Assembly (NCBI GenBank): GCA_001603805.1
Contig: LUZY01000013.1
Span: 186,001 to 250,000, forward strand
Source of the DNA: Deferribacterales bacterium Deferri_01
GTDB lineage: Bacteria; Chrysiogenota; Deferribacteres; Deferribacterales; Geovibrionaceae
DNA: 64,000 bases
Direction of reading: 5' to 3'
Part shown: one piece after another, positions 32,729 through 50,330 of the stretch
Layout: every line of letters starts with the position of its first letter
Position numbering within the stretch: position 1 is the stretch's first letter
Made by a program: the position numbers and the translations under genes
Notes under the pieces: generated by a model
What the model saw: only the letters and a program-made list of their open reading frames with translations
Database searches by the model: none
What the model was told of the DNA's origin: nothing

Positions 32729-32746
32729 ATTGTACGAAGGTACAAT
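32729..32746 (+). promoter_or_regulatory. Palindromic operator upstream of the Lap operon
   Basis: ATTGTACGAAGGTACAAT: 7-base arms around a GAAG centre. A -10-like hexamer (TATATA, 32762-32767) begins 18 bases after the right arm, so the site covers the -35 position, as expected for an activator. On the minus strand before the adhesin gene (50389-50406) 13 of 16 core positions match (TGTACNANGGTACNAT). Best explained as a shared binding site for a dimeric regulator. Confidence 0.65.
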
Positions 32747-32873: not shown

Positions 32874-32892
32874 TTATTGCGTACGTCAATAA
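32874..32892 (+). promoter_or_regulatory. Dyad next to the ribosome-binding site of the Lap operon
   Basis: TTATTG-CGTACGT-CAATAA, 6-base arms with a 7-base centre that again contains GTAC, ending beside the AGGAG ribosome-binding site at 32894-32898. It could be a second operator or part of a translation-control hairpin. Confidence 0.35.
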
Positions 32893-32905
32893 CAGGAGTG
32901 TTAGT

Positions 32906-34894
32906 ATGTGCTTATCGAATAACATTAAGAGGAAACTTCTCTCAATCGTAGCTTTGTTTTCTCTGTTATGCACGGCAGGATTTATACCCACTGCATATGC
33001 AGATGAAGACCTGTCACAAATGCAGACTGATAACGGTCAGGCTGCCCAGTTCATGCCTCTTCAAGAGGTGCTTAAAGATGTTGTCAGGACTAACCCGGAA
33101 ATTCTTGAAGCTTTAAAAAGATACCAGACGGTTAAATCCGAACTGGGTATGGCAAAAAGCGGTTATAAACCAAACATAAGCGCTGAGGCAAGTATTGGAC
33201 CCGAAGTTACCAAAGGCTATGATACGAACTATGAAAGCGAGGATCTTATAGCCAGAAGGGCAGGTATTTACGCCCGCCAGAACCTTTTCAACGGTATGCA
33301 CACATCAAACTATGTAAAAGAAACTGAAGCTCGTGTCAAGGCTGCGGCTTATGATGTTCTTAACACTGCAAACAGAGTGTTTCTTGATGCGGCAGAAGCT
33401 TATCTTGAGGTTTTGAAAACAGCAGAACTCGTTGAGCTTGCCAGACAAAATGTGCTTACACAGGCACAAATCCTTAATCAGATAAAAGAAAAAACCGATT
33501 CAGGATTTGGCAGAGTATCTGATCTCTCCAACTCTGAATCACGTTTTGCTCTTTCACGGAGCAATTTCATATCGCAGCAGCAGGATCTTAATCAGGCTAT
33601 TGTCAAGTTTCACAGACAGTTCGGACGTATATTAAGACCCGAAGTGTTTATAATCCCTGAACCTGCCGGTGAGCTTCCTGCCACTAAGGAAGAGGCTGTG
33701 GACATGGCAATGCATGTGCATCCTGCTCTTCGTGTTGCCAACTACAATATTGAAGTGCGGAAGTATACCCTCGCTAAAGAAAAATCAACTTACTATCCTT
33801 CACTTGATCTTGAACTTCAGGCTCAACACAATAATGATGTTGGCGGCGATGACGGCTGGACAAACAATGCTGGTGCATTCCTGAAACTCAGCTACACCTT
33901 TTATGATGGCGGAGTCAGAAAAGCACGTAAAATAGGCAACTATGAATCCATGCTGAAAGAGCATCAGAGAAGCTACATCGAACGCAGAAACGTTAACGAA
34001 ACTGTTGGGCTTGCATGGAACATTTTTGTTGCTGAACAAACAAAAAAAATGTTTCTCACTGAGCATGTTGACATGAGTGAAAGGACCCTTGTTGAGTTCA
34101 AGGAAGAATATCACCTCGGCAGAAGGACTCTGCTTGACCTTCTGGATATGGAAACAGAATACTTTACTGCTCAGAATTCATTTGTTCAGTCAAAATATTC
34201 ATTTCTTGCCGCATACTACAGGCTTGAACAGGCAACCGGAATGCTGCTCAGTGAGTTTGAAACAGGTCTCTTTGAAAAGGTTGAACTCCCTGAATATAAA
34301 GATGAATTCGACTACTCTCTTTATAAAAAACTCGGTGAGGACAGAGATGAAGACACTGTGAAGGACACAGCCGACCAGTGCGACAACTCACTCCTCGGAA
34401 CAGATACTATGCCTTGGGGATGCTTTGATAAAAAAGCTCTTGAAGTAGGCTACAATGGTCCTGAAAAGATTGAACCTTACATTCTTCCGAAAGAGGAAAG
34501 AATAACTGCTGAAGAACAGAAGGTTCTTGCTATTGATAACACCAAGAAGGAACAATCGTTTCATCTGGATATAATCAATTTCAACTTCGATTCAGCAGAG
34601 CTTACTCCCGAAGCCCATGAATATCTTAAAAGCATAGCCGGACAGCTTAAAGGGCTTGAAAACTACAAGCTTGATATAGTGGGACACACTGATACTTCAG
34701 GAACAAGAAGATACAACCAGAAACTCTCTGAAAAAAGAGCGGAAACAGTTGTTAACGAGCTTGCTTCCCTTGGTGTATCAAAAGATATTATGACTGCCTA
34801 CGGTAAAGGAAGCACTTCACCGATTTTCAGCAACCAGACACTTGAAGGCAGACAAAAGAACAGAAGAATAGAGTTTAAGATTATCAGGAACTAA
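32906..34894 (+). CDS. TolC/LapE-like outer-membrane channel fused to a TSP3-like linker and an OmpA domain
   Basis: Outer-membrane component of the type I secretion machine. A signal peptide ends ...IPTAYA (about residue 32). Residues about 50-460 are TolC-like: LQEVLKDVVRTNPEILEAL, ARRAGIYARQNLFNGM, LDAAEAYLEVLKTAELVELA and FKEEYHLGRRTLLDLLDMET. A short acidic segment DRDEDTVKDTADQCDNSLLG resembles a calcium-binding thrombospondin type 3 repeat. The last 110 residues are an OmpA peptidoglycan-binding domain (INFNFDSAELTPEAHEYL, VGHTDTSGTRRYNQKLSEKR, ending GRQKNRRIEFKI). In most Lap systems these are two proteins. ATG 32906 is chosen for the AGGAG site; the frame is open upstream to 32864. 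First gene of the Lap operon. Confidence 0.9.
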   Translation: MCLSNNIKRKLLSIVALFSLLCTAGFIPTAYADEDLSQMQTDNGQAAQFMPLQEVLKDVVRTNPEILEALKRYQTVKSELGMAKSGYKPNISAEASIGPEVTKGYDTNYESEDLIARRAGIYARQNLFNGMHTSNYVKETEARVKAAAYDVLNTANRVFLDAAEAYLEVLKTAELVELARQNVLTQAQILNQIKEKTDSGFGRVSDLSNSESRFALSRSNFISQQQDLNQAIVKFHRQFGRILRPEVFIIPEPAGELPATKEEAVDMAMHVHPALRVANYNIEVRKYTLAKEKSTYYPSLDLELQAQHNNDVGGDDGWTNNAGAFLKLSYTFYDGGVRKARKIGNYESMLKEHQRSYIERRNVNETVGLAWNIFVAEQTKKMFLTEHVDMSERTLVEFKEEYHLGRRTLLDLLDMETEYFTAQNSFVQSKYSFLAAYYRLEQATGMLLSEFETGLFEKVELPEYKDEFDYSLYKKLGEDRDEDTVKDTADQCDNSLLGTDTMPWGCFDKKALEVGYNGPEKIEPYILPKEERITAEEQKVLAIDNTKKEQSFHLDIINFNFDSAELTPEAHEYLKSIAGQLKGLENYKLDIVGHTDTSGTRRYNQKLSEKRAETVVNELASLGVSKDIMTAYGKGSTSPIFSNQTLEGRQKNRRIEFKIIRN

Positions 34895-34908
34895 TGCTAT
34901 ACTAAGTG

Positions 34909-35571
34909 ATGATAAGACTTAAACATTTAATGCTTATAACCTCCGCAGCAGTGATATTTTATGTCGCTGCTGCGGTTTCGTCTGATACTTTCTACGTGCC
35001 GGATGATGCTGTGAATGCCTTTAAAACCCGCTACGGCGGACAGGCAGAGAAAAGACTCACCGCACTGATAGAGCTTATGAATGAACTTGTGTCTGCAGAT
35101 GAGACAACAAAGATCACAGAGGTCAATAAATTTTTCAATCGGGTTGAATACCGTTCAGATGCGCAGGTGTGGGGTAAGAGCGATTATTGGGCAAGCAGGC
35201 TGGAGTTTTTAGGGAAAGGGATGGGTGACTGCGAAGACTATGCCGTTGCTAAATTTCTAACGCTTATTCAATTGGGCGTTCCGCAGGAAAAGCTGTTTCT
35301 CACATACGTCAAGGCTATAGGATATGCCGAGGTGGCTCATATGGTTGTTTCCTATTACCCGCAGAAAGGCGCTGTTCCGCTTATTCTGGATAACTATAAC
35401 AAACAGATTATGCAGGCTACGCAGAGAAATGATCTTGTGCCTGTTTACAGCTTCACTGCAAAGGATCTTTATATACAGAAACAGCAGGGACTTGGAAAAA
35501 GGGTGAATCCTTCTTCATCCAAAAATCTCCAGAAACTAAAAGAAATAGACCTTGAAATATATAAGAGGTAA
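34909..35571 (+). CDS. lapG: LapG-type periplasmic cysteine protease (BTLCP family)
   Basis: Calcium-dependent transglutaminase-like protease that cuts the N-terminal retention module of LapA-type adhesins. A signal peptide occupies about 1-25. The catalytic Cys108 is in GMGDCEDYA, with Asp107 and Glu109 at the positions known to bind calcium in LapG; His144 is in EVAHMVV and Asp161 in LILDNYN, completing the triad. The W-x-SRLEFLGKG lead-in is typical. 220 residues is normal. An in-frame GTG lies directly before the chosen ATG. Its predicted substrate site, TAAG, is in the adhesin encoded at 41766-50330. Confidence 0.92.
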   Translation: MIRLKHLMLITSAAVIFYVAAAVSSDTFYVPDDAVNAFKTRYGGQAEKRLTALIELMNELVSADETTKITEVNKFFNRVEYRSDAQVWGKSDYWASRLEFLGKGMGDCEDYAVAKFLTLIQLGVPQEKLFLTYVKAIGYAEVAHMVVSYYPQKGAVPLILDNYNKQIMQATQRNDLVPVYSFTAKDLYIQKQQGLGKRVNPSSSKNLQKLKEIDLEIYKR

Positions 35572-35576
35572 CTAAA

Positions 35577-37517
35577 ATGACCTTATTCCGACAGTTACAA
35601 ATTTTCGTGACAATAATGCTGCTGGCGGTTCTGGGTATTGTTCTGCAAATTAATTTCAGCGATACAAAAGAATACGTCCGCAGCCAGTTATATACAAATG
35701 CGAAAAACACCGCTAATTCCCTGTCTCTCTCTATGAGTCCATTTATGGATGATCTTTCCATAATGCAGACAATGATAAACGCTATGTTTGACGGCGGTTA
35801 TTTTGAAGAGATAACTCTTATAAGACAGGATGGAACAATTTCTTATTCCAAGAGTGAGAAAATAGAAGTGGAAGGAGTTCCTCAGGCATTTATTAATATG
35901 GTAAAACTTGAGGCACCTGTGGCGGAAGCGGCAGTTTCCGGCGGGTGGAATATATACGGAACACTGAAAGTTAAGGTTCATCTCGGGCATTCATACCTGC
36001 GTTTATGGGAGACATTTAAACAGCTCTGCATATGGTTTGTGGCTATCGGCGGATTGGCTTCTTTTGCCAGTTATTTCATTCTCAAGCTTATTCTGGCATC
36101 GCTTAATGCAATTAAGAACCAAGCGGAAGCCGTAGGGAACAATGAATTTATAATAAATAACCGTGTGCCCAGAACCCCGGAACTCAAACAGGTTGTTCTT
36201 TCTATGAACTCTATGGTTCAGAAGGTGCAAACCATTTACAACCGCGAGGTTGAGACTCTGAAAAAATATCAGGAGCTTCAGTTCAAAGATCCGCTGACAG
36301 GGCTTTACAACCGTAAATACTTCATAAAGCAGTTCGGCAACTTTATTTCTTCCAATGATGAGCGCTCCAAAGGGGAAATTATACTCTTTTCCTTTGAGGG
36401 ACTGGAAAAAGTTCAGCAGATATCTGGTTTTCAGGTTGTTCAGCAGCTTTATGATTTTGCTTCAGCAACAATGAAAGAGTGTACTGCAACCAAACTGTAT
36501 TCATTTATATCATGCCTGAATGCCAATGATTTTGTCATAGCACTGCCTTCTGCAGATTCTGATGAAAGCAATCTCTGCACTAAAATGATCTATTCCAAAA
36601 TTAAAGACTTTGTAGATGCAAATAGAGAATTCAGGGAGCATACAGAGTTTGCAGCAGGGATTGTATCTTATAATGAATCCGACACAATAAGCAGTGTATT
36701 GACAAAAGGCGACTATGCTCTTTCTGCTGCAAAAAATTCTGCCGAACCTCATTTTGAACATTTCAGGGATGATGGAAACGCCCTGATTCTGGGTAAGCTT
36801 GAGTGGAAAAAAATGATTGAATCCGCCCTCAGTGACCAGAGGTTTATGCTTACATCACAGCCAGTTGTTTCCGATACGGGAGAACTGCATCAGGAGATCT
36901 TCATTAATATGGTAGATCTTCAGGGGCAGATCCAGCGTGCAGGATACTTTATGCCGATGGTTATTAAGCTGTCACTTGCTAATGAAGTTGATCAGTATGT
37001 GCTGCGCCACGCCACGGACTTTCTTGATAAAAATCAGGATATTACCCTTGCTGTCAATGTTTCCAATGACTTTCTCAAAGACAGGGAGTCGTTTACATGG
37101 TTCAGAAAATTTCTTGCTACAGTCAAACACCTCAGCAAAAGACTTGTTTTTGAAATTCCCGATGAAGCTATTGGCAAGAGTTTTGACATTTGTCTGGATT
37201 TTTCTGGTTTGATTAAAGGAACCGGCTTCAAGTTCGGTATAGACAGGTTCGTGATGAATGAGACCTCTGTTAAATACCTGCATCTGCTTAAACCTGACTA
37301 TATAAAAATAGAGCAGGACTATCTGCTTGATATTGAAAACAGAGGTGAAGCAGAGGTGGCTCTTAACGCCTTCCTGACTATTACAGAAAGCCTTGGAATA
37401 AAGCTTATAGCTACCAAAATAGAGAATGAGGAACAAAAAGCAGTGCTTGAAGCAAGACAGATAAAATATTTTCAGGGCAGGGGAATCGCTGATATTACTC
37501 CTTTAGGTGATAAATAA
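35577..37517 (+). CDS. lapD: LapD-type c-di-GMP receptor (inactive GGDEF and EAL domains)
   Basis: Inner-membrane receptor that holds LapG in the periplasm when c-di-GMP is bound. Membrane helices at about 8-28 and 150-172 flank a periplasmic domain with Trp124 in SGGWNIYG, the counterpart of the Trp (125 in Pseudomonas fluorescens) that inserts into LapG. A HAMP segment follows. The GGDEF domain (DPLTGLYNRKYF onward) has NANDF instead of GGDEF, and the EAL domain has EIF instead of EAL with DRF where DDFG is expected, so neither should be enzymatic. 646 residues is normal. A good ribosome-binding site (aagaggt) precedes the ATG. Confidence 0.92.
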   Translation: MTLFRQLQIFVTIMLLAVLGIVLQINFSDTKEYVRSQLYTNAKNTANSLSLSMSPFMDDLSIMQTMINAMFDGGYFEEITLIRQDGTISYSKSEKIEVEGVPQAFINMVKLEAPVAEAAVSGGWNIYGTLKVKVHLGHSYLRLWETFKQLCIWFVAIGGLASFASYFILKLILASLNAIKNQAEAVGNNEFIINNRVPRTPELKQVVLSMNSMVQKVQTIYNREVETLKKYQELQFKDPLTGLYNRKYFIKQFGNFISSNDERSKGEIILFSFEGLEKVQQISGFQVVQQLYDFASATMKECTATKLYSFISCLNANDFVIALPSADSDESNLCTKMIYSKIKDFVDANREFREHTEFAAGIVSYNESDTISSVLTKGDYALSAAKNSAEPHFEHFRDDGNALILGKLEWKKMIESALSDQRFMLTSQPVVSDTGELHQEIFINMVDLQGQIQRAGYFMPMVIKLSLANEVDQYVLRHATDFLDKNQDITLAVNVSNDFLKDRESFTWFRKFLATVKHLSKRLVFEIPDEAIGKSFDICLDFSGLIKGTGFKFGIDRFVMNETSVKYLHLLKPDYIKIEQDYLLDIENRGEAEVALNAFLTITESLGIKLIATKIENEEQKAVLEARQIKYFQGRGIADITPLGDK

Positions 37518-39664
37518 TGAGTAAAAAAATATCATCTGATTCATTGATGAACTGCTTGGTTTTATTAACCAAGCTGAATGACAGACCAGCCACGATGGAA
37601 GCACTGGCCTACGGTCTGCCCTTTGATCCTAAAAAGGAGAAGCAATCGCTTTTTGATGTTGAAAAATCAAAAGCAAACTTTTCACGGGCGGCTGCGAATG
37701 CAGGGTTTAAATCCACTCTTGTTAAAAGGAAAATAGAGGATTTCCCCGTAGTTGTTCTTCCGGCAATCCTTCTTCTCTCTAACGGAAACGCCTGTGTACT
37801 GACAGCAATAGACCATGCAAAAAGAAAAGCTGAGATTGTAATTCCTGATATTGATGAAACTCCGATGGAAACAGATCTGGACAAGCTTAATGAGGAATAC
37901 CTCGGTTTCGCTTTTCTCCTTAAAAGAGTTTATGAGGGCTACAGACCGGAAGATACTGTTTCAACAGAAGGCGACCGTGAAAACTGGTTTTTCGGCACTC
38001 TGCTGAAGTTTAAGAGTATTTACGGCAACGTTCTGCTTGCTACGTTTCTTATAAATATATTCGTAATAGCCGGTCCTATGTTTACCATGAATGTGTATGA
38101 CAGGATTATCCCTCATAACGCAGTCGATACTCTCTGGGTGCTTGCTATAGGAATTTCCACGGTTTATACCTTCGACCTTATTCTTAAATACCTTCGTACT
38201 CAGTTTCTTGAGGTAGCTGCAAAAAAAAGTGATGTAATTCTTTCATCCATTCTTTTTGAGCAGTCCCTGAATCTGAAGATGAAAAATAAACCACGCACAG
38301 TGGGTTCTTTTGCCAATAATCTCAGGGAGTTTGACGGAATAAGAGGCTTTTTTACATCAGGTGCCGTAACAGCATTTATCGAGCTTCCTTTTGTCGTGAT
38401 TTTTCTTTTGGTTATCTATTATATAAGCAAACTCCTTGTGCTTGTTCCCCTCGCTACTATCCTTCTTATCCTTATTTACAGCGTAATTATGCGTAAACCG
38501 ATTAAAAGGCTGGCAGACAGTACACACGAGGCATCTGCACGAAAAAGCGGAATACTGGTTGAGGCTCTTTCCAACCTTGAGACAATAAAGGCTTTCAACG
38601 CTAACAGCTCTGTTCAGTGGCACTGGGAGGAAAGCACCGGAGATATCGCTTCAAAAGGGCTTAAATCGAGGATTTTATCCAGCTCTCTCAGCACGGTTGC
38701 AGCGTTTCTTACTCAATTAAGCAGCGTTGCCGTGGTAATTGCAGGTGTTTATCTGATCAAGGAGGGTGAGCTGACCATGGGCGGACTTATCGCAACGGTT
38801 ATACTGTCTTCCAGAAGCATAGCTCCGATGTCTCAATTCGCATCTCTGCTTACAGGATACGAACAGATGAAGACGGGGCTTGCCTCTCTCAACGATCTGA
38901 TGAAGAAAGAAATAGAACGCCCGGACCGCAGGCTTTTCCTCCGCCGTCCGATTTTTAAAGGGGCTATCGAGTTTAAAAACGTGACCTTTAAATATCCGGA
39001 CGAAACCAAAAATGCCCTCTCCAACGTCAGCTTTAAAATCAACCCGAAAGAACGGGTGGGAATCATAGGACAGGTCGGTTCCGGTAAATCAACTCTGGCA
39101 AAGATGCTCATGGGGTTTTATGAACCGGAAGAAGGAAGCATTTTTGTGGATGGCATAGACATACAGCAGATAGATCCGGCGGATTTACGGCATAATTTCA
39201 GCTATGTTCCGCAGGATGTATCACTGCTTTCCGGAACAGTTCGTGACAATGTGACCTTTAAAGCTCCCCATGCGGATGATACCGAAATAATCAGAGCTGC
39301 GCAGGTGGGCTGTGTGACAGCTTTTACAGACAGACACCCCATGGGGCTTGATGTAAATGTGGGGGAAAGAGGAGGCAACCTTTCCGGCGGTCAGAGGCAG
39401 TCTGTTGCAGTGGCTCGTGCATTTCTGGTGGACAGCCCCATAGTCCTTATGGATGAACCCACTAACTCCATGGACTACGCCACAGAGATGAAGGTAATAG
39501 CCAATCTGAAAGAGAGTACAAAAGATAAAACCACTATAGTGATCACTCATAAACCGAGTATCCTTGAAATAGTTGACCGTATTATTGTTTTCGATAATGG
39601 AACCATAGCTCTGGACGGCAAAAAAGAGGATGTTCTGGCAAAGCTCGGAGGTAACCGTAAATGA
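37517..39664 (+). CDS. lapB: LapB-type type I secretion ATPase/permease
   Basis: Inner-membrane ABC exporter driving adhesin secretion. Residues 1-140 form a C39-peptidase-like domain lacking the catalytic Cys motif (starting MNCLVLLTKLNDRPATMEAL), as in RTX-type exporters. Six membrane helices follow (about 165-450, with FTMNVYDRIIPHNAVDTLWV), then the nucleotide-binding domain: Walker A GQVGSGKST near 517-525, Q-loop VPQDVSLLSGTVRDN, signature LSGGQRQSVAVARAF and Walker B IVLMDEPTNSMD. 715 residues is typical. Start overlaps the lapD stop by 1 base. Confidence 0.94.
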   Translation: MSKKISSDSLMNCLVLLTKLNDRPATMEALAYGLPFDPKKEKQSLFDVEKSKANFSRAAANAGFKSTLVKRKIEDFPVVVLPAILLLSNGNACVLTAIDHAKRKAEIVIPDIDETPMETDLDKLNEEYLGFAFLLKRVYEGYRPEDTVSTEGDRENWFFGTLLKFKSIYGNVLLATFLINIFVIAGPMFTMNVYDRIIPHNAVDTLWVLAIGISTVYTFDLILKYLRTQFLEVAAKKSDVILSSILFEQSLNLKMKNKPRTVGSFANNLREFDGIRGFFTSGAVTAFIELPFVVIFLLVIYYISKLLVLVPLATILLILIYSVIMRKPIKRLADSTHEASARKSGILVEALSNLETIKAFNANSSVQWHWEESTGDIASKGLKSRILSSSLSTVAAFLTQLSSVAVVIAGVYLIKEGELTMGGLIATVILSSRSIAPMSQFASLLTGYEQMKTGLASLNDLMKKEIERPDRRLFLRRPIFKGAIEFKNVTFKYPDETKNALSNVSFKINPKERVGIIGQVGSGKSTLAKMLMGFYEPEEGSIFVDGIDIQQIDPADLRHNFSYVPQDVSLLSGTVRDNVTFKAPHADDTEIIRAAQVGCVTAFTDRHPMGLDVNVGERGGNLSGGQRQSVAVARAFLVDSPIVLMDEPTNSMDYATEMKVIANLKESTKDKTTIVITHKPSILEIVDRIIVFDNGTIALDGKKEDVLAKLGGNRK

Positions 39665-41028
39665 TAAACGGAAAAAACTCTTCGGGTTATAAAAACGGAA
39701 ACGGAAAAAAATATGTTCAGGAAAGTGACATTGAATTCATGAACAGCCTTAACGCCGCCGTTCTTCAGAAAAGCCCTGTGAAAATGTCACTGATACTTTA
39801 TGTAATAACTGCTCTTATAATTGTGCTGTTCACATGGGCTTATTTTACTGAACTTGATGAACTCACAAGAGGCATAGGCAAAGTTATTCCATCCAGACAG
39901 GTTCAGGTGGTTCAGAACCTTGAAGGCGGTATAGTTAAGGAGCTTCTGGTAAAAGAAGGGCAGTTTGTCAAATCGGGGCAGGTACTTGTGATTATTGATG
40001 ACACAGGTGCAGGCAGTTCATATCAGGAAGGCAGAGCAAAACTTGGCGAACTGAAGGCGAGGGCGGTAAGGCTTCGTGCTGAAGCCGGCATAGCTCCGTT
40101 TATTATAGATGATGACGCAAAAAATAATTATCCCATGCTGATTATGGAAGAACAAAGGCTTTATGAAACTAATGCCGCACGCAGAAATAATGAAAAAGAA
40201 GTTTTTGTTCAGAGATTTAAGCAGAGGCAGGTTGAACTTGCCAATGCTCGTCTCCGGCTTAAAAACCTTCATACCAGCAGAGGAATGATTCACAGGGAAA
40301 TCGAGCTTATGGAGCCGCTTTATAAAAAGGGGCTGGTATCCGAGCTTGAGTTTATTCAGCTTAAACAGAAGGAGCTTGATAACCGCAAAGAGATTGATGA
40401 AACAGTGAAAAATATTGAATCTCTGGAATATCAGGTTGTGGAAGCAAGAAACGCTATAGAAGAGATCGAAGGAAGACAGAAAAGTGAGGCTCAGACAGAG
40501 CTGAATAAGGTAATAGCAGAGATAGAACAGATCTCCAACTCACAGGTTGCCATCGAAGACAGAGTAAGGCGAACAATGGTTCGCTCACCTGTTGACGGAA
40601 CAGTTAAGCAGCTTTTCATCAACACTGTCGGCGGTGTGGCAAAACCGGGAATGGATATAATTGAAATTGTTCCCAATGATGACAGGCTGCTCATAGAAGC
40701 CAAAATTAAGCCATCGGACATAGCGTTTATATACCCCGGACAGAATGCAGTGGTTAAGCTTACAGCCTATGATTTTGCCATTTACGGCGGTCTCAAAGGC
40801 AAGGTTATCCATGTGAGTGCAGACACTATAACAGATGAAAAAGATGAGGAATACTACCTTGTCCGCATCGAAACAGACAAAAACTACCTGGGCACAGAAG
40901 ATAACAAAAAGGACATTATGGTCGGCATGACAGTGCAGGCGGATATTATTACGGGCAAAAAGACAATTCTTCAGTACATCATGAAGCCGATTTTAAGAGC
41001 GAAGTATAACGCATTAAGGGAAAGATGA
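39661..41028 (+). CDS. lapC: LapC-type HlyD membrane-fusion protein
   Basis: Periplasmic adaptor linking the ABC exporter to the TolC-like channel. A single membrane helix at about 40-62 is followed by a lipoyl/biotinyl-like half-motif (RQVQVVQNLEGGIVKELLVK, then EGQFVKSGQVLVIIDDTG), a long coiled coil (about 130-330) and a beta-barrel part (VRSPVDGTVKQLFINTVGGV and GLKGKVIHVSADTITDEKDE). 455 residues is usual for the family. It overlaps lapB by 4 bases and the LuxR gene by 4 bases. Confidence 0.93.
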   Translation: MINGKNSSGYKNGNGKKYVQESDIEFMNSLNAAVLQKSPVKMSLILYVITALIIVLFTWAYFTELDELTRGIGKVIPSRQVQVVQNLEGGIVKELLVKEGQFVKSGQVLVIIDDTGAGSSYQEGRAKLGELKARAVRLRAEAGIAPFIIDDDAKNNYPMLIMEEQRLYETNAARRNNEKEVFVQRFKQRQVELANARLRLKNLHTSRGMIHREIELMEPLYKKGLVSELEFIQLKQKELDNRKEIDETVKNIESLEYQVVEARNAIEEIEGRQKSEAQTELNKVIAEIEQISNSQVAIEDRVRRTMVRSPVDGTVKQLFINTVGGVAKPGMDIIEIVPNDDRLLIEAKIKPSDIAFIYPGQNAVVKLTAYDFAIYGGLKGKVIHVSADTITDEKDEEYYLVRIETDKNYLGTEDNKKDIMVGMTVQADIITGKKTILQYIMKPILRAKYNALRER

Positions 41029-41618
41029 TGAAAATAACTGTTGTAACTGACGATACCCGCTTTTTTAAATATGTCGAGTCAGCCGTAAGACTTAACGGCT
41101 GCAATTTCGCAAGATATGAACGTGATAAGGCGGAAGATTCCGTAAAAGATGCGGATTTGGTTGTGGTGGATTTACTCGCTTCGGACAGACAGATTCATGC
41201 AGGCGGATGCCCTGTTGCTGTTTTCTCCGCTGTACCGTCTTACGGTGAAGCTCTGCGCTTTCTCCAGAAGGGCGTTAAGGGGTACGGAAACCGTTTGATG
41301 AACCCTGAAAACATGAACCAGCTTGTTCACACTGTTTTATCAGGGCAGGTATGGCTTCCTCCTGCGATATTGAACAGGCTCATAGCATCTGTGCCTCAAA
41401 ACGGCACATCAAAGCTTGAGGCTGGCTTTTTTGAGGATTTGAGCGAAAGGGAACAGCAGGTAGCAGAGCTTGTAGGGCGGGGAATGAGCAATAAAGAGAT
41501 TGCCGAATTAATGAATATCACCGTTCGCACGGTAAAGGCGCACTTGTCGTCTGTTTTTGTGAAGACAGGCTGCCGTGACAGGCTGGAGGTTGCTCTCAAG
41601 CTGAAAGGTAATCTCTGA
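41025..41618 (+). CDS. LuxR/NarL-type response regulator at the end of the Lap operon
   Basis: Transcription factor of 197 residues. Residues 1-115 are a receiver-like domain: acidic pair DD at 9-10, candidate phosphorylated Asp49 (VVVDL), Ser68, but Arg90 (GYGNR) at the position of the conserved Lys. Residues about 139-190 are a LuxR helix-turn-helix (LSEREQQVAELVGRGMSNKE then VRTVKAHLSSVFVKTGCRD). No histidine kinase is adjacent. Co-transcription with the secretion genes, and a shared palindrome before this operon and the adhesin, make it the obvious candidate for the regulator of both. A second ATG at 41028 is also possible. Confidence 0.88.
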   Translation: MMKITVVTDDTRFFKYVESAVRLNGCNFARYERDKAEDSVKDADLVVVDLLASDRQIHAGGCPVAVFSAVPSYGEALRFLQKGVKGYGNRLMNPENMNQLVHTVLSGQVWLPPAILNRLIASVPQNGTSKLEAGFFEDLSEREQQVAELVGRGMSNKEIAELMNITVRTVKAHLSSVFVKTGCRDRLEVALKLKGNL

Positions 41619-41765: not shown

Positions 41766-44700
41766 TTACATATCTGTACCGTCATCAGTGAATATGACTT
41801 TGATGTGAGTATCTGTCACTTCAAAGTTCACTCCGCCTTCAAAGCTGATGTCAGCGCCGCCGTTGTTGACAACAAGATGATTATCCACTACGGAGAATTC
41901 ACCTTCAGAGTTGTCTATTGTGACAAAATCGCCTTCATTGCCTCTGATAACAAGGGCGTTGTCACCATCGGTAATATCCAGAACATCCTGCAGAGTAAGG
42001 TTCGTGAGGGTATTGTCTCCGTCGGTGAGGTCTATCTCCTCTACATTCCTTACTATTTCGCTGATGTTGCTGAAGTCAAGCTCAGTGCCGCCGGTATTTA
42101 CAACAAGGGTGTCGTAACCGTCTCCGGCGTCTATCAGGTCGGCTGTCGGGTCAAATGTTATGGTATCGTTGCCGTCTGTGCCGCTGATAACATGCTGAGG
42201 CTCTTCACCTATGCTTATTACGAGCTTCGCACTGTCTGTGTCACCGTCAGCCTGAGTAAGCTTATATTCAAAGGTTTCGGTTTTGCCGATACCATCAGTG
42301 CTTTCAGGTGTGTAGGTGTATGAACCGTCTTCTTTGATAAGAAGAGTTCCGTAATCGCCGTTAATTGTGATACCGGATTCAGTAGGTTCAACATATTCTG
42401 TTCCGTTGAATACGGTGAATACTGCACCTTCGGAACCCATATCATCCACAGCGCCCCACTGGTCGTCACTGCCGAGGTATGTGTTCGGGTCTGCGAGAAC
42501 GTTGCCTTCAGCATTTTCTACAATAATGCTTGTAAAAGCAGCAACAGTTGCAACAATAGCAATGTTAGTAAGTGTAACACTGAGGTCATAGTTCCATACC
42601 ATGAAACCATTATCAGTAGTGTTAAACACTATCCTGTAATGTCCGGGATCAATATTGTCTAAGGTCACTGTTCCGCTACCGCTGTACTTTGTTACGGAAG
42701 TACCGGGAACAGCTTTCCATTTGGTATTGCCCCAATAATCCGTTCCGTCAGCTACTTCAAGCTTGTAGCTGAATGAATCACCATCGGAGATACCGGACAT
42801 ATTGTAGTTAAAGCTGAGTGAGCCGCTGCTTCCTCCATTGACTTCAAATTCCGCAGAAGTATCATTGCCATCCTTAAGAGTAATGTCGTTCATTACCTTT
42901 TCAGGCTCTCCTACAACTGCTTCATGGAAAATCTCTTTGTAGATAGCGTGGTCAGCATTGTCCGCAGCAAGAACTTCGCTTCTGTCTGTTGTTGTGAGAA
43001 CAAGTTCGGCTTCGGATCTGTCGCCGTTGCTGTCTTGAATCACATACTTGATAACCGCAGAGGCATCATCCGCAACATCCAGACCGGAAGTAAACTCATA
43101 CCTTCCGTCACTGTATATAGTTACTTTGCCTGCGTTGCCGAGGTCAATTTCTTTGCCGAACTCAATCTCTTCTCCGTTGTATTCGGCAGATACAAGGGCA
43201 GGGCTTCCCGCTCCGTCATCACCGAAATCATCGTTATCAAGGAGATTGCCTTCAACTTTGTTAAGCTCAACAGTTTCCTGCAACTTAGCTGAAAGATCTG
43301 CCTCATTAGCAACAGTGATTACGTTACCGCTATGGTTTCCGTCATCATCACTGGTCCATGCAACCTGTTTAAGCTCTTTAGTATCGTCAATATCCGAACC
43401 AACTGCGATAGCAAAAGACTCTGTGACCCCTTTCTCGTCAAGGAAATCTCTCCATGAGTCTCTTTCTGAGTTATTGAGACCATTTGAATTGGAAGAAGGA
43501 TCTCCGTCTGAAAGGAAGTACACATATGTATTGTCTGCCGCTGTGGGATTGCCGTAGCCGGTTTTAACCGCATTAATAGCCGCATCATAGTTAGTTCCGC
43601 CGCCGCCCTTCATCAGGGAGTTATCCTGAAGCAGTTCAACAGCCTCACTGCCTGTCATCCATGTTGAGCCGTCATACTCGACAATGCTTGCTCCTGAATC
43701 GAAGTCTACAAGCATAACGTTCTGGAGAGAATCGCCGTATTTGCCAATAAGGTCTATGAGAGCCTGTTTGGCAAGGGCAAGACGGGTTGTCCATTCTCCG
43801 TCAACATAGATAGTTCCGGAATAGTCTGTCATACTGCCTGATGTGTCAAGCATCAGAACAAGGTTGGTTTTGGAGGTTGTTGCAACACCTTCCTCAATAC
43901 TTACGATATCATCCTGAGCAACAGGCACATCATTGGTATTATTAACCTTGACAGTTACTGTTTCAGTATCTGTTCCGCCGTTTCCGTCTGAAACTGTGTA
44001 AGTGAACGTATCCTCGCCATCAAAGCCTTCTGCGGGAGTGTAAACAAGTTTGCCGTTCACAAGCTCAACTGTTCCACCGTTTTCGCTTGTGCTGTCAAAG
44101 TCTGATACGCTGAGAGCGTCGCCGTCTGCGTCTGTATCGTTTGCGAGAACATCAATTTCGACAGAGGTGTTTTCATCTGTTTCAATGTAATCCGCAGCAG
44201 CCACAGGTGCATCATTTACAGGAGATACTACAAGGTAAACAGTTGCGGAATCTTCACCGCCGTTTCCGTCTGAAATAGTGTATTCAAACTGAGCAGGTCC
44301 GTTATAGTCTGCATCCGGTGTGAAGGTTATGCTTCCGTCAGGGTTAAGAGTAACCTCTCCGTTTACAGCATTGCTGACACCTATGATTGTGAGGTCATCT
44401 CCGTCCACATCAAAGTCATTATCAAGAAGATCTGCCGCTGCAAAATCTATGGCAACGTCTTCCGGTGTGGCGTATGTGCCTTCGTTTGTGAGCATTGTGT
44501 AGGTCTGTCCGCCGTCAGCGCTTATTTCAGGCTTGAATACATATTCGCCGCCCTGATCCCACCAGTACATATCAATGTCGTACCATCCGCTTTCTCCGAT
44601 GGTGAAAGAGTCATGTACGTGGGTTGCGGGGGACTGGTTGTTGGCGAATTTAGCCACACTGTCACCGTTTATGAGTATCTCATAACCGTCATCCGCAAGA

Positions 44701-47700
44701 ACTCTGAAATTGTAGGTTCCGGCTTCGATATATACTCTACCGGAGATATGGAAACCGCCTTCATCAGAGTTTACAACTTCGCCGTCATTGTAAGTAAGTG
44801 AGTTACCATCAGTGTTTTCACCGTTGGCATTGAGGAATCTCTCAAGGTTATTACCCTGTGAAACACTGCCTGTGCCGTAGCCGTACCAAATCTTTGTGGC
44901 TTCAAAAGATGCCGCAGGATCAGTTGTATTAACTATGTGTTTGAATTCATTGAGGTTATCTATCAGATAACCGCTATTATTGTCATCACCGAGACCATTG
45001 TCATCAGTGTCAACAGCGTAATAGTTACCAGTAAGCCCTGTGAAGCTGAAGTTAGGTCTGCCGTCATCAACAGCAACTGGTTCATCGTTTACAGGTATTA
45101 CTTTAACGGTTGTTATGGCAGTGTTACTGTCATCGTCTCCATCATTTACAGTTACTTCGATAAAGCGGTCGTCTGTCGCAGGGTTTTCGCTTGTGCTTGC
45201 GAAGCCTATTGCCTTTATGGCTTCCTGATAGTCTGCCAGGGTGGCAGTACCTTCAAGAACTATGGTAACGCCGTCATTGCTGACAACACTTATACCTGCG
45301 GGCAGGGTGCCTGTTGAAAGGAAGTCCCCGTCAAACGGATTGGTGAGTTTGATAACTGCGCTTTCTATGTTAGTATCGTCAACATCAGTTATCTCAACTG
45401 TGTCACTGGCTATTGATACAGGAGATGAGTTCTCAACGTATGTTGTTTCGTATCCTGTGCCATCACCGGAAGATGTTTCCGTAAGGGTGAGTACGACATC
45501 GTTGAAATCACTGTCGGTCTGGTCTTCAATAGCAATTGTGTGAGTTCCGTCACCGTTGTCAGTTATCAGGAAGAACTGTTTTCCGTCAGGGTTCTTACCA
45601 TCTTCACTGTAGAAAACGGGCTTAGTGGGCTCTGCTCCGTTAATAAGCAGCTTGCCGTCTGCATCAAAGCTGAAAACAGTGCTTCCGTCAACTATGGATG
45701 CTCCGTCAGCTATGATAAAGAACTGAATGTTTCCGGCTTCTGAATTCATGGAGAATATCTCACCGAAATCGGTGTTGTCTGATCCGTCCAGAATTATCTG
45801 TGCATCAACAGGGTCGCCGTTTTCATCCAGCCAGTAAACACCGACTGCATTGTTAAAGCTTGCGCTCTGTGAGTCGTAAGTGATTGTGGTTTTTGCGGCA
45901 TCAGCTTCAAGATCCAGCACAGGAGCATCATTAACAGGATTAACGTTAATGTTCACTGTGGCTGTGCTTGTTGCACCATTTTCATCTTTAATGGTGTAAG
46001 TGAAGCTGTCTGAACCGTTGTAGTCACCGTTAGGAGTGTAAGTGAATGTTCCGTCAGGGTTGAGAGTAATTTCGCCGTGTGCGGGCTGTGTGTAGTCTTT
46101 AATGCTTATAGTGTCTCCGTCAACATCGTAGTCGTTGTCGAGAACATCTATCACAACCTGACTATCCTCATTAACCTCAACAGCATCATCCTGTGCAACC
46201 GGCGCATCGTTTGTGCCTTTCACTTTGATAGTGATATAGCCTTCTTCCGATGTGTCGTTATCAGAGCCGGAGTTATCTGTGGCGGTAAACGGTACTTTAA
46301 TAAGTGTTGTTTCGCCCTTTGCCAGATAATCATAAGCAGGGTCAGAGGGGTCGAAAGACCATGAACCGTCAGAATTAAGCGTAAAGCCCGCAGGTGCATC
46401 ACCAACGAGAGCAAAAGTATGTGTATCGCCGTTATCAGCATCATAAGCCCTAAGCTGTCCGCCGATTTCGTTTCCGCCTTCGTAAACTGTTTTAAATACA
46501 TCAGTTACGCAAGGTCTGTCATTTGTGCCTGTAACAGTAATTGTAATAGTTCCTGTTTCAGAGATTGAGTTAAGAGATACAGAATCATCCACAGCAACAT
46601 ATTTCACTGTGAGCGTAAGCTCTTCGCCTTCTCTCAGGCTGTTATATGCGGGATTTGAAGGATCAAAGCTGTAAGAGCCGTTGGGCAGAAGCACAAAGCC
46701 TGCGGGGAATCTGCTTGCGGGCAGGAAGATATGCTGATCGCCTTCATCAACGTCTGTTACATCAAGCTGACCTGTGTATCTTGCTCCGCCTTCAAAAACT
46801 CCGAACTCAACATCTCCGACTTCCGGTCTGTCGTTTGTACCTATAACTCTGATAGTTATTGTTCCCTGTTCAGATTCAGCATTATCAGCACCTGAATCAT
46901 CAGTGGCAGTGTAGGGTATCTTAAGCACAAGGACATCGCCTTTTGCGAGGCTGTCGTATGTGTCATGGTCAGGGTCAAATGACCAAGAACCGTCAGAGTT
47001 CAGAATGAACCCGTCAGGAGCATCGCCGGAAAGAGCGAATGTATGAGTATCTGTAGTATCAACATCAGACACGGAGAGCTGACCGTCTATGGTTCTGCCG
47101 TCTTCAAAGACGATTTTTGAAACGTCTCTAACTTCCGGTCTGTCGTTAGTTCCTGTGATTGTTACCGTCACGGTTTCTGTGGCTGTTCCGTCAACAGATA
47201 CAACCTCAAAAGTTTCTGTCAGGGTTTCACCTTCACCAAGCGCCTGAACTGTGCCGTTACTGTTGTTAAGGCTGTATGTCCAGTTACCGTTTTCATCCAT
47301 TACGAATGAACCGTAATCACCATCCTGATTGGACGGGTCGAAAAGGCTCTCGCCTGTGTCAACGTCAGCAATATTAAGCTTGCCGTCAACTGAAAGAGTA
47401 ACATCTTCCACAACCGTACCGCTGTCCTGACCGCTGATTACGGGAACATCATTAGTTCCGGTGATTGTCACGGTGACTGTATGTGTTGCAGAGCCGTCTA
47501 TGGATGTTACTGTAAATTCTTCTGTAAGTGTTTCTCCTGCGGGAAGCGATTGGATTGCTGCGCTGTTGTTAGTTGCGGTGTATGTCCACACGCCGAGCGG
47601 TCCGACAGTAAATGTGCCGTATTCGCCTCTAACTGCTTCCGGTTTAAAGAAATCCTGAAGAAGATCAACATCATCAATTGTAAGCACGCCGCCTGTTATG

Positions 47701-50330
47701 AGCTTGCCGAAGAATACGCCCTGATCTTCTGTGACAGAGCCTTCATCCTTACCGCCTATAACCGGTACGTCATTTGTGCCTACTATAGTTACTGTTACTT
47801 TCTGAGATGCTGTTCCATCAAGAGATACAACTGTAAAAGTCTCTTTCAGTTTCGCTCCTTCGGGGAGATACTGAACAGCGTCATTATCAAGGTCGTAAGT
47901 CCAGTTACCGTTCTCATCTACACTGAAAGTGCCGTATCTGCCGGATGTATCTTCCTGCGAACGGAAGAAGCTTTCATCTGTATCGATATCTGCTATGTCA
48001 AGCTTGCCTGATGTTGAAAGAACGTCGCCGTCTTCATATACGGTGCCTTTCTTTTCGCCTGATATTTCAGGGACATCGTTAGTACCAGTGATGGTAACTG
48101 TTACTGTTTCTGTAGCTGTGCCGTCAAAGGATACCACTTCAAAAGTTTCGGTAAGGGTTACGCCAGCGGGAAGAGCCTGAACAGCGCCGTTTTCGTTATC
48201 GAGGCTGTAAGTCCAGTTGCCGTTTTCATCCATTACGAATGAGCCGTAGCTTCCATCCTGTTCTGTAGGCTGGAATGAACTTTCGCCAGTGTCAACGTCA
48301 GCTATATCAAGCTTGCCTGAAGCTGTGAGTGTTCCATCCTCGACTACATCACCTGCGGCGTTGCCTGTTATCACTGGAACATCGTTAGTTCCGGTAATGG
48401 TGACTGTTACAGTTTCTGTAGCTGTGCCGTCAAAGGAAACAACTTCAAAAGTTTCGGTAAGGGTTACGCCAGCGGGAAGAGCCTGAACAGCGCCGTTTTC
48501 GTTATCGAGGCTGTAAGTCCAGTTGCCGTTCTCATCCATTACGAATGAACCGTAGCTTCCATCCTGTTCTGCGGGCTGGAATGAACTTTCGCCAGTGTCT
48601 ACATCTGCAATGTCGAGTTTACCGTTAACTGAAAGAGTAGAGTCTTCGATCATTGTTCCGCTGTCCTGACCACTGATTACAGGAACATCATTTGTGCCTA
48701 TAATAGTTACTGTTACAGTTTCTGTAGCTGTGCCGTCAAAGGAAACAACTTCAAAAGTTTCGGTAAGGGTTACGCCAGCGGGAAGAGCCTGAACAGCACC
48801 GTTTTCGTTATCAAGGTTATACGTCCAGTTGCCATCTTCATCCATTACGAATGAACCGTAGCTTCCTTCCTGATCTGCGGGCTGGAATAAGCTTTCGCCA
48901 GTGTCAACATCAGCTATATCAAGCTTGCCTGAAGCTGTGAGTGTTCCGTCTTCAACTACATCACCAGCGGCGTTGCCGGTTATTACTGGGACATCATTTG
49001 TGCCTGTAATAGTTACTGTTACCGTTTCTGTGGCTGTGCCGTCAAAGGATACCACTTCAAAAGTTTCAGTGAGGGTTACGCCGGCGGGAAGAGCCTGAAC
49101 AGCGCCGTTTTCGTTATCGAGGCTGTAAGTCCAGTTGCCGTTCTCATCCATTACAAATGAGCCGTAGCTTCCGTCCTGTTCTGTAGGCTGGAATGAGCTT
49201 TCGCCTTCATCTACATCGGCTATATCAAGCTTGCCGGAGATTGAGACTACAGAGTCTTCAACTACGTCAGCGGAAGATTCGCCTGTTATCACGGGAACAT
49301 CATTTGTACCTGTGATGGTAATTGTTACGGTTTCTGTAGCTGTGCCGTCAAGAGAGACAACTTCAAACGTTTCCGTAAGAGTTGCACCTTCTGGGAGAAA
49401 TTGAACAGCATCATTATTAAGCTGGTAAGTCCAGTTTCCGTTTTCATCCAGAACAAAACTGCCGTACTCGCCAGTCTGTTCGGATGGGCGGAAGAAGCTT
49501 TCACCTTCGTCAATATCATCAATAGTTACCTGACCGTCGATTGACGTAACTACATCTTCAACCACAGCACCTTCATCTCCGGTAAGGATCGGGACATCAT
49601 TAACAGGGTTAACTGTTATATCCACAGTGTAGGTTGCTGTTCCGCCGTTTCCATCATCAATTACATAAGAGAAACTGTCTGGACCGTTATAGTTGGGATT
49701 GGGGGTGTAAGTGTAGGAACCGTCAGGGTTGATAACAAGTATTCCGTTTACAGGCGGAGTGCCTACGGAGTAGGTTACATCATCGCCGTCTATGTCTGAG
49801 GCTGCGGGAAGTTGACCGGAAAAAACACCGTCTTCATCCATTACGACCGCATCATCAGCCGCAGCAGGGGCAGCGTTACCTGCACCGGTGTCATCTCCTG
49901 TATCTTCTCCGCCTTCATCAGCATCTGCATCAAGCAGGTATGTACCTACCTGACCTTCGGAATCATCACCGCTATAGTAAGAAGCAAGAAATTCAAAAGA
50001 GTCTTCCTCGCCTGCGGCTGTTTCTTCTTCGATTTCATCGATATTTTCACCAGCTTCAAGTGCAGCTTGAAGGGCTTCAACATCTGATATGGACGCATCT
50101 TCGTTTTCTACTGATGCTGTCACTGTTTCATCCAGCAGCATCTGGGCGTTTTCGCCGAGAGCTATTTCCTTGTTGTCAGCGAGAGTGATAACTATAGAAC
50201 CGCCGGCGCCTGTTTCGATAATTTCATTATCAAAAACTATGTCGCCAACTGCGAGGGTACGCACCTGACCATCTGCGCCGCGTGCTGTTACCATTCCGCT
50301 GATTGATTTAACTGTTCCTGCCTGAGCCAT
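41766..50330 (-). CDS. lapA: Giant LapA-type RTX adhesin with LapG cleavage site, VCBS repeats, PA14 and vWA domains
   Basis: Secreted, cell-surface adhesin of 2854 residues, exported by the adjacent type I system. Residues 1-110 are a LapA-type retention module (VKSISGMVTARGADGQVRTL) with the LapG site TAAG at 104-107, cleavage expected between Ala105 and Ala106. Then: cadherin-like domain (~155-245); eight VCBS repeats of ~100 residues (244-1060); three NDRP-type repeats (1062-1370); more cadherin-like domains; a DUF4114-like segment (DSDFNDVVLTLTE, ~1607-1619); PA14 (~1763-1950); vWA with MIDAS DTSGS at 2162-2166, Thr2246 and SDGDP at 2274-2278; and a C-terminal region with one RTX-like GTDGNDTI (2717-2724), consistent with a type I signal. 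ATG 50330 follows GAGG. Very acidic, one cysteine. Confidence 0.93.
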   Translation of the reverse strand: MAQAGTVKSISGMVTARGADGQVRTLAVGDIVFDNEIIETGAGGSIVITLADNKEIALGENAQMLLDETVTASVENEDASISDVEALQAALEAGENIDEIEEETAAGEEDSFEFLASYYSGDDSEGQVGTYLLDADADEGGEDTGDDTGAGNAAPAAADDAVVMDEDGVFSGQLPAASDIDGDDVTYSVGTPPVNGILVINPDGSYTYTPNPNYNGPDSFSYVIDDGNGGTATYTVDITVNPVNDVPILTGDEGAVVEDVVTSIDGQVTIDDIDEGESFFRPSEQTGEYGSFVLDENGNWTYQLNNDAVQFLPEGATLTETFEVVSLDGTATETVTITITGTNDVPVITGESSADVVEDSVVSISGKLDIADVDEGESSFQPTEQDGSYGSFVMDENGNWTYSLDNENGAVQALPAGVTLTETFEVVSFDGTATETVTVTITGTNDVPVITGNAAGDVVEDGTLTASGKLDIADVDTGESLFQPADQEGSYGSFVMDEDGNWTYNLDNENGAVQALPAGVTLTETFEVVSFDGTATETVTVTIIGTNDVPVISGQDSGTMIEDSTLSVNGKLDIADVDTGESSFQPAEQDGSYGSFVMDENGNWTYSLDNENGAVQALPAGVTLTETFEVVSFDGTATETVTVTITGTNDVPVITGNAAGDVVEDGTLTASGKLDIADVDTGESSFQPTEQDGSYGSFVMDENGNWTYSLDNENGAVQALPAGVTLTETFEVVSFDGTATETVTVTITGTNDVPEISGEKKGTVYEDGDVLSTSGKLDIADIDTDESFFRSQEDTSGRYGTFSVDENGNWTYDLDNDAVQYLPEGAKLKETFTVVSLDGTASQKVTVTIVGTNDVPVIGGKDEGSVTEDQGVFFGKLITGGVLTIDDVDLLQDFFKPEAVRGEYGTFTVGPLGVWTYTATNNSAAIQSLPAGETLTEEFTVTSIDGSATHTVTVTITGTNDVPVISGQDSGTVVEDVTLSVDGKLNIADVDTGESLFDPSNQDGDYGSFVMDENGNWTYSLNNSNGTVQALGEGETLTETFEVVSVDGTATETVTVTITGTNDRPEVRDVSKIVFEDGRTIDGQLSVSDVDTTDTHTFALSGDAPDGFILNSDGSWSFDPDHDTYDSLAKGDVLVLKIPYTATDDSGADNAESEQGTITIRVIGTNDRPEVGDVEFGVFEGGARYTGQLDVTDVDEGDQHIFLPASRFPAGFVLLPNGSYSFDPSNPAYNSLREGEELTLTVKYVAVDDSVSLNSISETGTITITVTGTNDRPCVTDVFKTVYEGGNEIGGQLRAYDADNGDTHTFALVGDAPAGFTLNSDGSWSFDPSDPAYDYLAKGETTLIKVPFTATDNSGSDNDTSEEGYITIKVKGTNDAPVAQDDAVEVNEDSQVVIDVLDNDYDVDGDTISIKDYTQPAHGEITLNPDGTFTYTPNGDYNGSDSFTYTIKDENGATSTATVNINVNPVNDAPVLDLEADAAKTTITYDSQSASFNNAVGVYWLDENGDPVDAQIILDGSDNTDFGEIFSMNSEAGNIQFFIIADGASIVDGSTVFSFDADGKLLINGAEPTKPVFYSEDGKNPDGKQFFLITDNGDGTHTIAIEDQTDSDFNDVVLTLTETSSGDGTGYETTYVENSSPVSIASDTVEITDVDDTNIESAVIKLTNPFDGDFLSTGTLPAGISVVSNDGVTIVLEGTATLADYQEAIKAIGFASTSENPATDDRFIEVTVNDGDDDSNTAITTVKVIPVNDEPVAVDDGRPNFSFTGLTGNYYAVDTDDNGLGDDNNSGYLIDNLNEFKHIVNTTDPAASFEATKIWYGYGTGSVSQGNNLERFLNANGENTDGNSLTYNDGEVVNSDEGGFHISGRVYIEAGTYNFRVLADDGYEILINGDSVAKFANNQSPATHVHDSFTIGESGWYDIDMYWWDQGGEYVFKPEISADGGQTYTMLTNEGTYATPEDVAIDFAAADLLDNDFDVDGDDLTIIGVSNAVNGEVTLNPDGSITFTPDADYNGPAQFEYTISDGNGGEDSATVYLVVSPVNDAPVAAADYIETDENTSVEIDVLANDTDADGDALSVSDFDSTSENGGTVELVNGKLVYTPAEGFDGEDTFTYTVSDGNGGTDTETVTVKVNNTNDVPVAQDDIVSIEEGVATTSKTNLVLMLDTSGSMTDYSGTIYVDGEWTTRLALAKQALIDLIGKYGDSLQNVMLVDFDSGASIVEYDGSTWMTGSEAVELLQDNSLMKGGGGTNYDAAINAVKTGYGNPTAADNTYVYFLSDGDPSSNSNGLNNSERDSWRDFLDEKGVTESFAIAVGSDIDDTKELKQVAWTSDDDGNHSGNVITVANEADLSAKLQETVELNKVEGNLLDNDDFGDDGAGSPALVSAEYNGEEIEFGKEIDLGNAGKVTIYSDGRYEFTSGLDVADDASAVIKYVIQDSNGDRSEAELVLTTTDRSEVLAADNADHAIYKEIFHEAVVGEPEKVMNDITLKDGNDTSAEFEVNGGSSGSLSFNYNMSGISDGDSFSYKLEVADGTDYWGNTKWKAVPGTSVTKYSGSGTVTLDNIDPGHYRIVFNTTDNGFMVWNYDLSVTLTNIAIVATVAAFTSIIVENAEGNVLADPNTYLGSDDQWGAVDDMGSEGAVFTVFNGTEYVEPTESGITINGDYGTLLIKEDGSYTYTPESTDGIGKTETFEYKLTQADGDTDSAKLVISIGEEPQHVISGTDGNDTITFDPTADLIDAGDGYDTLVVNTGGTELDFSNISEIVRNVEEIDLTDGDNTLTNLTLQDVLDITDGDNALVIRGNEGDFVTIDNSEGEFSVVDNHLVVNNGGADISFEGGVNFEVTDTHIKVIFTDDGTDM
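47151..49601 (-). repeat. VCBS repeat array inside the adhesin gene (8 units)
   Basis: Eight protein repeats, each starting NDVP and ending VTVTITGT, begin at residues 244, 343, 445, 547, 649, 751, 853 and 960. The units starting at 343-649 (48081-49304) have an exact 306-base period and nearly identical DNA; the outer ones are more diverged and vary from 99 to 107 residues. Confidence 0.93.

Follow-up and report, generated by a model that had tools for sequence, protein, structure and literature searches.

A Lap operon TolC channel fused to a TSP3-like repeat and an OmpA-like domain in Deferribacterales bacterium Deferri_01, a plausible cell wall anchor for an adhesin pore

The first gene of a complete Lap operon in Deferri_01 encodes a LapE-type TolC channel that continues in the same frame into a TSP3-like repeat and an OmpA-like peptidoglycan-binding domain (plus strand, 32906 to 34894). 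All coordinates are positions in the window, i.e., the 64,000-nt stretch of Deferri_01 contig LUZY01000013.1 that was analyzed. The added TSP3-like and OmpA-like parts correspond to a separate gene in gammaproteobacterial lap operons, and we consider it reasonably likely that this extended LapE anchors the secretion pore, together with the LapA-type adhesin retained in it, to the cell wall.

The fusion gene begins with an ATG at 32906, preceded by AGGAG 7 bases before, ends with a stop codon at 34892 to 34894, and contains no internal stops, giving a protein of 662 amino acids with an N-terminal signal peptide. The channel domain (residues 47 to 455; 33044 to 34270) matched Pfam OEP (PF02321) in two stretches with an E value of 2.7e-43 and passed the TIGR01844 type_I_sec_TolC model (246.6 bits versus a cutoff of 225.15). 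It is followed by a flexible linker (residues 456 to 545), within which lies one TSP3-like repeat (residues 479 to 506; 34340 to 34423) whose paired cysteines are C492 and C506, and by the OmpA-like domain (residues 546 to 662; 34541 to 34891), which passed PF00691 at residues 559 to 653 (E value of 1.3e-21; 77.2 bits versus 27.2). The AlphaFold2 monomer, built from a 16-sequence alignment (mean pLDDT of 77), comprised two confident domains and a low-confidence region at residues 471 to 539, and Foldseek matched its N-terminal part to TolC structures and its C-terminal part to OprF, PA0833, and OmpA C-terminal domains; OmpA-like relatives of the second domain also have experimentally solved structures. 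The architecture described in the first-pass annotation, a TolC protein running past its normal end through an acidic repeat into a full OmpA domain, is therefore real, since the open reading frame and the profiles agree on it; its coordinates were correct as to start, stop, and open frame, and structure prediction, which it had suggested as a check, returned the two domains with a low-confidence joint.

The same annotation had raised the concern that a frameshift might hide a stop between the domains, which is excluded by the congeners and by the selection analysis. Of 12 Deferribacterota genomes from the same family, 11 encoded the fusion as one open reading frame, the carriers being Deferribacteraceae-type relatives (Denitrovibrio and Seleniivibrio records), and the fused frame was 87 to 88% identical in two congeneric genomes; the one exception, G003, was without both the fused gene and LapG. 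The dN/dS ratios against the congeners were ∼0.02 for the channel, 0.05 to 0.08 for the linker, and ∼0.06 for the OmpA part, values that are rough, with dS close to saturation. Purifying selection acts on all parts of the fusion, the junction included. A sequencing or assembly artifact that hid a stop or joined two genes was thus rejected and retains almost no credence: no sign supported it, the frame is open throughout, the same single frame recurs in independent same-family and Desulfobacterota genomes, and purifying selection runs through the junction.

Downstream of the fusion gene, with short intergenic gaps or overlaps, the plus strand encodes a LapG-type periplasmic cysteine protease (34906 to 35571; PF06035 and NF045674 profile), a LapD-type c-di-GMP receptor whose GGDEF and EAL motifs are degenerate in sequence (35577 to 37517; LapD_MoxY_N and NF045673 profile), a LapB type I secretion ABC transporter (37517 to 39664; TIGR03375, 870 bits), a LapC/HlyD membrane-fusion protein (39661 to 41028; TIGR01843, 405 bits), and a LuxR-type HTH regulator (41025 to 41618; GerE) that closes the conserved operon and keeps its position in relatives. 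The order LapG, LapD, LapB, LapC, and LuxR was the same in nine of nine further family loci checked. Convergent to the operon, a LapA-type adhesin of 2854 amino acids is encoded on the minus strand (41766 to 50330), with the N-terminal retention module NF033682 (78.3 bits versus a cutoff of 50) and, according to a motif scan, a LapG-like site, TAAG, at residues 104 to 107. LapG (179 versus 320 bits) and LapD (340.6 versus 1020 bits) scored under the equivalog cutoffs and are, judging from these scores, distant orthologues of the proteins of the pseudomonad families. By gene content, the locus is a Lap-type adhesin retention system, for which c-di-GMP-controlled adhesin release is predicted.

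All parts of the Pseudomonas fluorescens Lap system are matched here (LapA-type adhesin with retention module and LapG-like site, LapG, LapD, LapB, LapC, and LapE), but LapE of P. fluorescens is a plain TolC, whereas that of Deferri_01 adds the TSP3-like and OmpA domains; the gene order also differs, and the Deferri_01 operon is closed by the LuxR-HTH gene. In the Bpf system of Shewanella oneidensis, the genes for the TolC-like AggA, the OmpA-family SO4321, BpfG, and BpfD stand in an order matching that of Deferri_01, although TolC and OmpA are encoded separately there and fused here. SO4321 lies between aggA and bpfG, and its deletion affects biofilm, its role being stated as not known (PMC4523816).

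Other unfused counterparts, known from plasmid records besides this one paper, have a similar layout. Plasmid NZ_CP061942 of Marinomonas algicola encodes, in order, TolC, an LptE-like lipoprotein, OmpA with TSP3, LapG, LapD, LapB, LapC, and LuxR, which is the Deferri_01 order in unfused form except for the lipoprotein gene inserted after TolC. In Marinomonas, the first TSP3 repeat (DRDLDGSLTKNDQCQNSLLNSMVNTIGC) is as long as the Deferri_01 repeat and shares its CxNS signature, and the later ones bear the usual CPxTP. In the lap operons of Photobacterium, Salinivibrio, and Vibrio fluvialis, TolC is followed by a TSP3-OmpA gene, which in Photobacterium and Salinivibrio sits between lapE and lapG, and on a V. 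harveyi plasmid a TolC and OmpA gene pair adjoins a large adhesin gene. No OmpA gene was found near the lap loci of Aeromonas and Aminobacter. Because several gammaproteobacterial lap operons have an OmpA gene directly after lapE, the pairing is not new; the LapE/OmpA association is already known as adjacent genes, and the fused form is a variant of an existing Lap component. Thus, the first-pass annotation, which presented the fusion as a departure from Lap systems with separate proteins, was right about the fusion but not about the novelty of the association. A tree of the short OmpA domains did not resolve a descent of the fused domain from the separate lap OmpA. No description of a TolC-OmpA fusion was found in the open-access literature searched. 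As a separate observation, the Marinomonas lipoprotein gene between TolC and OmpA occupies L066:10273-11127.

Beyond the family, the fusion was found in eight Desulfobacterota-type loci (L032 to L038 and L046) at 51 to 55% identity, with LapG, LapD, LapB, and LapC downstream, largely in the family order, where the contig was long enough, so that the spread of the architecture, which the first-pass annotation had left to be looked up, covers these loci in addition to the 11 family genomes; the fused gene was absent from the other families sampled within the order. Surveys of ∼395 genomes around each of two Desulfobacterota centers gave no further close matches at strict cutoffs with a first-look filter that may overlook diverged copies, which suggests that the fusion is rare around these two centers. 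The fusion clade received support of 100/100 in both the channel tree and the LapB tree. Because the Deferri_01 genus clustered with the Desulfobacterota copies in these trees (96/94 for the channel and 100/99 for LapB), away from its own family, the operon (32906 to 41618) was probably transferred between phyla.

The C-terminal part varies within this clade. The channel and the TSP3-like repeat were kept in L044 (Desulfopila aestuarii) and L045 (Desulfobacterium sp.), but an OmpA domain, sought in the frame and in the following DNA, was not found in either; the L045 channel gene adjoins an intact LapG/LapD/LapB/LapC set. Since both are nested in the clade, the phylogeny implies that the OmpA domain was secondarily lost, with the sister relation of L045 being weakly supported. 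In the Olavius algarvensis Delta 4 endosymbiont, a 999-amino-acid TolC (L035:5893-8892) carries three tandem OmpA domains within a lap operon. On plasmid pACLO of Arcobacter cloacae, an 860-amino-acid protein (L065:13986-16568), whose annotation reads simply "TolC family outer membrane protein," combines TolC, TSP3 repeats, and two OmpA domains, and its neighbors are LapB, LapC, a regulator, a giant adhesin, and LapG; a tree holding this fusion together with the others was not rejected (p-AU of 0.47).

Two further TolC genes were noted in passing. One, in a Seleniivibrio-type genome (L029:6689-8926), is a divergent second paralogue of TolC whose two OmpA domains are decayed; it adjoins LapB/LapC and a 2243-amino-acid adhesin-like open reading frame, without an adjacent LapG or LapD. 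The other (L063:1144-3075) encodes the TolC of a type I secretion system, lies beside LapB, and comes from a different family within the phylum. Its C terminus looked SH3-like by eye; a bacterial SH3 domain at this C terminus received no support from Pfam and was rejected.

The OmpA domain of the fusion retains the residues expected of a peptidoglycan binder. OmpA of A. baumannii contacts diaminopimelate through D271 and R286 (PMC6572160), and the corresponding D596 (in GHTD) and R611 (in LSEKRA) are intact in Deferri_01 with the same spacing of 15 residues. In E. coli, the peptidoglycan lies between AcrA and TolC of the AcrAB-TolC pump (PMC13082787). Because the ligand residues are intact and the wall is near TolC, three OmpA domains per trimer could hold the pore to the sacculus. 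Each LapE trimer (the model being a monomer) would extend three OmpA domains on flexible linkers of ∼90 residues, the arms would leave TolC at its equatorial region in the periplasm, level with the wall, and the domains would grip peptidoglycan diaminopimelate noncovalently. The LapA-type adhesin would stay in the pore via its retention module until LapG cleavage, and a pore and adhesin tied to the sacculus in this way could resist extraction from, or dragging through, the outer membrane under load.

Two known systems resemble this arrangement in part. In Acinetobacter sp. Tol 5, the periplasmic peptidoglycan binder TpgA ties the AtaA adhesin to peptidoglycan (PMC13082670) and likewise strengthens the anchoring of a giant adhesin in the outer membrane, but TpgA-AtaA is a type V trimeric autotransporter made of two separate proteins, unlike the Deferri_01 fusion. 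SiiA, of the Salmonella SPI-4 type I system for the giant adhesin SiiE, binds peptidoglycan (PMC12607715) and is thus a peptidoglycan-binding subunit such as that proposed here; however, it is an inner-membrane Mot/Exb-type protein outside the outer-membrane channel, whereas the Deferri_01 domain lies within the channel protein. With regard to family assignment, the best NCBIfam OmpA-type model was NF053612 (PA1041-family anchor lipoproteins), covering residues 479 to 659; membership was rejected because the score was below the equivalog cutoff (113.7 versus 250 bits), and PA1041-family proteins are lipoproteins, whereas the OmpA domain of Deferri_01 belongs to a channel protein.

Several observations weigh against wall anchoring, namely, a simulation of AtaA-TpgA suggesting that complex formation can strengthen the anchor without wall coupling (PMC13082670), the Aeromonas and Aminobacter loci lacking OmpA, and the substitution of the ligand Asp in the OmpA versions of Vibrio, Photobacterium, Salinivibrio, and Arcobacter. 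Moreover, of the five genomes from the Seleniivibrio-type sister genus, four have lost the Arg of LSxxRA from the OmpA domain. Because of this loss and the absence of OmpA from L044 and L045, wall anchoring is not obligatory, and the OmpA domain appears dispensable for some members of the fusion clade. Such losses, together with the Asp replacements, indicate that a portion of the family may use the domain otherwise. These exceptions qualify the anchoring proposed in the first-pass annotation, and the genuine Lap operon and the intact ligand residues speak for it.

The losses also bear on whether adjacent genes were joined by chance with no special function, the OmpA domain being a generic and losable link between outer membrane and wall. 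Its loss in two Desulfobacterota relatives and the decayed ligand site in one genus would fit such an origin; however, the OmpA part has a dN/dS of ∼0.06, most members of the clade, from two phyla, have kept it, L035 has it in triplicate, and Arcobacter has a second TolC-OmpA fusion, which makes a chance joining decidedly improbable. Alternatively, the OmpA domain might set the height of the LapE trimer in the peptidoglycan mesh, for docking of LapB/LapC and access of LapG, with no role in bearing load. The C-terminal/equatorial region of TolC is a site of partner interactions (PMC8277102), peptidoglycan is present at the equatorial level of TolC, and the unfused OmpA gene is closely linked to lapE and lapG, all of which would suit a role in assembly. 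Nevertheless, the relatives without OmpA retain LapB/LapC, and L045 also LapG/LapD, indicating that assembly is possible without the domain, and we regard this alternative as rather unlikely. Of these readings, anchoring of the adhesin pore to the wall is the most economical and, in our judgment, somewhat favored to be correct.

The linker deserves separate consideration. Its repeat, DRDEDTVKDTADQCDNSLLGTDTMPWGC, is present in one copy with the pattern DxDxDxxxDxxDxC...GC, and its likeness to TSP3 is at the motif level, as Pfam TSP_3 (PF02412) gave no matches to the fusion protein even at an E value of 10. The motif was seen in all relatives examined, including the pair L044/L045 without OmpA and the divergent L029 paralogue, and a C[DQ][NQ]S-like signature marks it in every member. 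As the sole addition common to all members, the TSP3-like repeat is a candidate for a module with a function of its own; because the linker is conserved more strictly than the OmpA domain, it is probably a functional module and more than a spacer. The "TSP3-like linker" of the first-pass annotation accordingly stands as to the repeat, while a mere spacer is unlikely. It could further be supposed that the Cys-pair repeat is the functional core, forming a calcium- or disulfide-stabilized collar of the channel, and that OmpA is accessory. The presence of the repeat in every member, OmpA-less pair and L029 paralogue included, argues for such a collar, but the argument is one of sequence conservation, model confidence is low at residues 471 to 539, and there is no solved homologue, so that we think it quite unlikely.

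If the pore is wall anchored, the fusion bears on how Lap systems keep a giant adhesin, lodged in its outer-membrane channel, in place against pulling forces. It points to the channel as the partner of lap-linked OmpA genes, which would assign a concrete function to those of the SO4321 type, and nature provides variants that carry zero, one, or three wall-binding domains. More tentatively, in one lineage of Lap systems the anchor may be built into the exit pore of the adhesin, so that substrate, adhesin, LapE trimer, and sacculus would form one load path, with SO4321-type genes doing the same in trans, a possibility we consider less likely than not. In that case, how many OmpA domains are present and in what state (zero, one, degenerate, or three) would be matched to the mechanical load that the habitat imposes.

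Minor observations concern the region around the start of the gene. Between congeners, pS was 0.17 to 0.28 in the first 46 codons versus ∼0.65 over the entire gene, and the leader and start region (32880 to 33040) folded better than shuffled sequences (z of -2.85); an Rfam search of this region returned no match. The low synonymous divergence and the folding make an RNA-level or regulatory constraint possible. A palindrome, TTGTAC-N4-GTACAA (32730 to 32745), lies ∼160 bp upstream of the fusion gene as the sole exact copy in the genome and is a candidate operon operator, perhaps bound by the operon's own LuxR-HTH protein. It is kept at the same promoter in the two congeners with an altered spacer, and G002 has one further copy.
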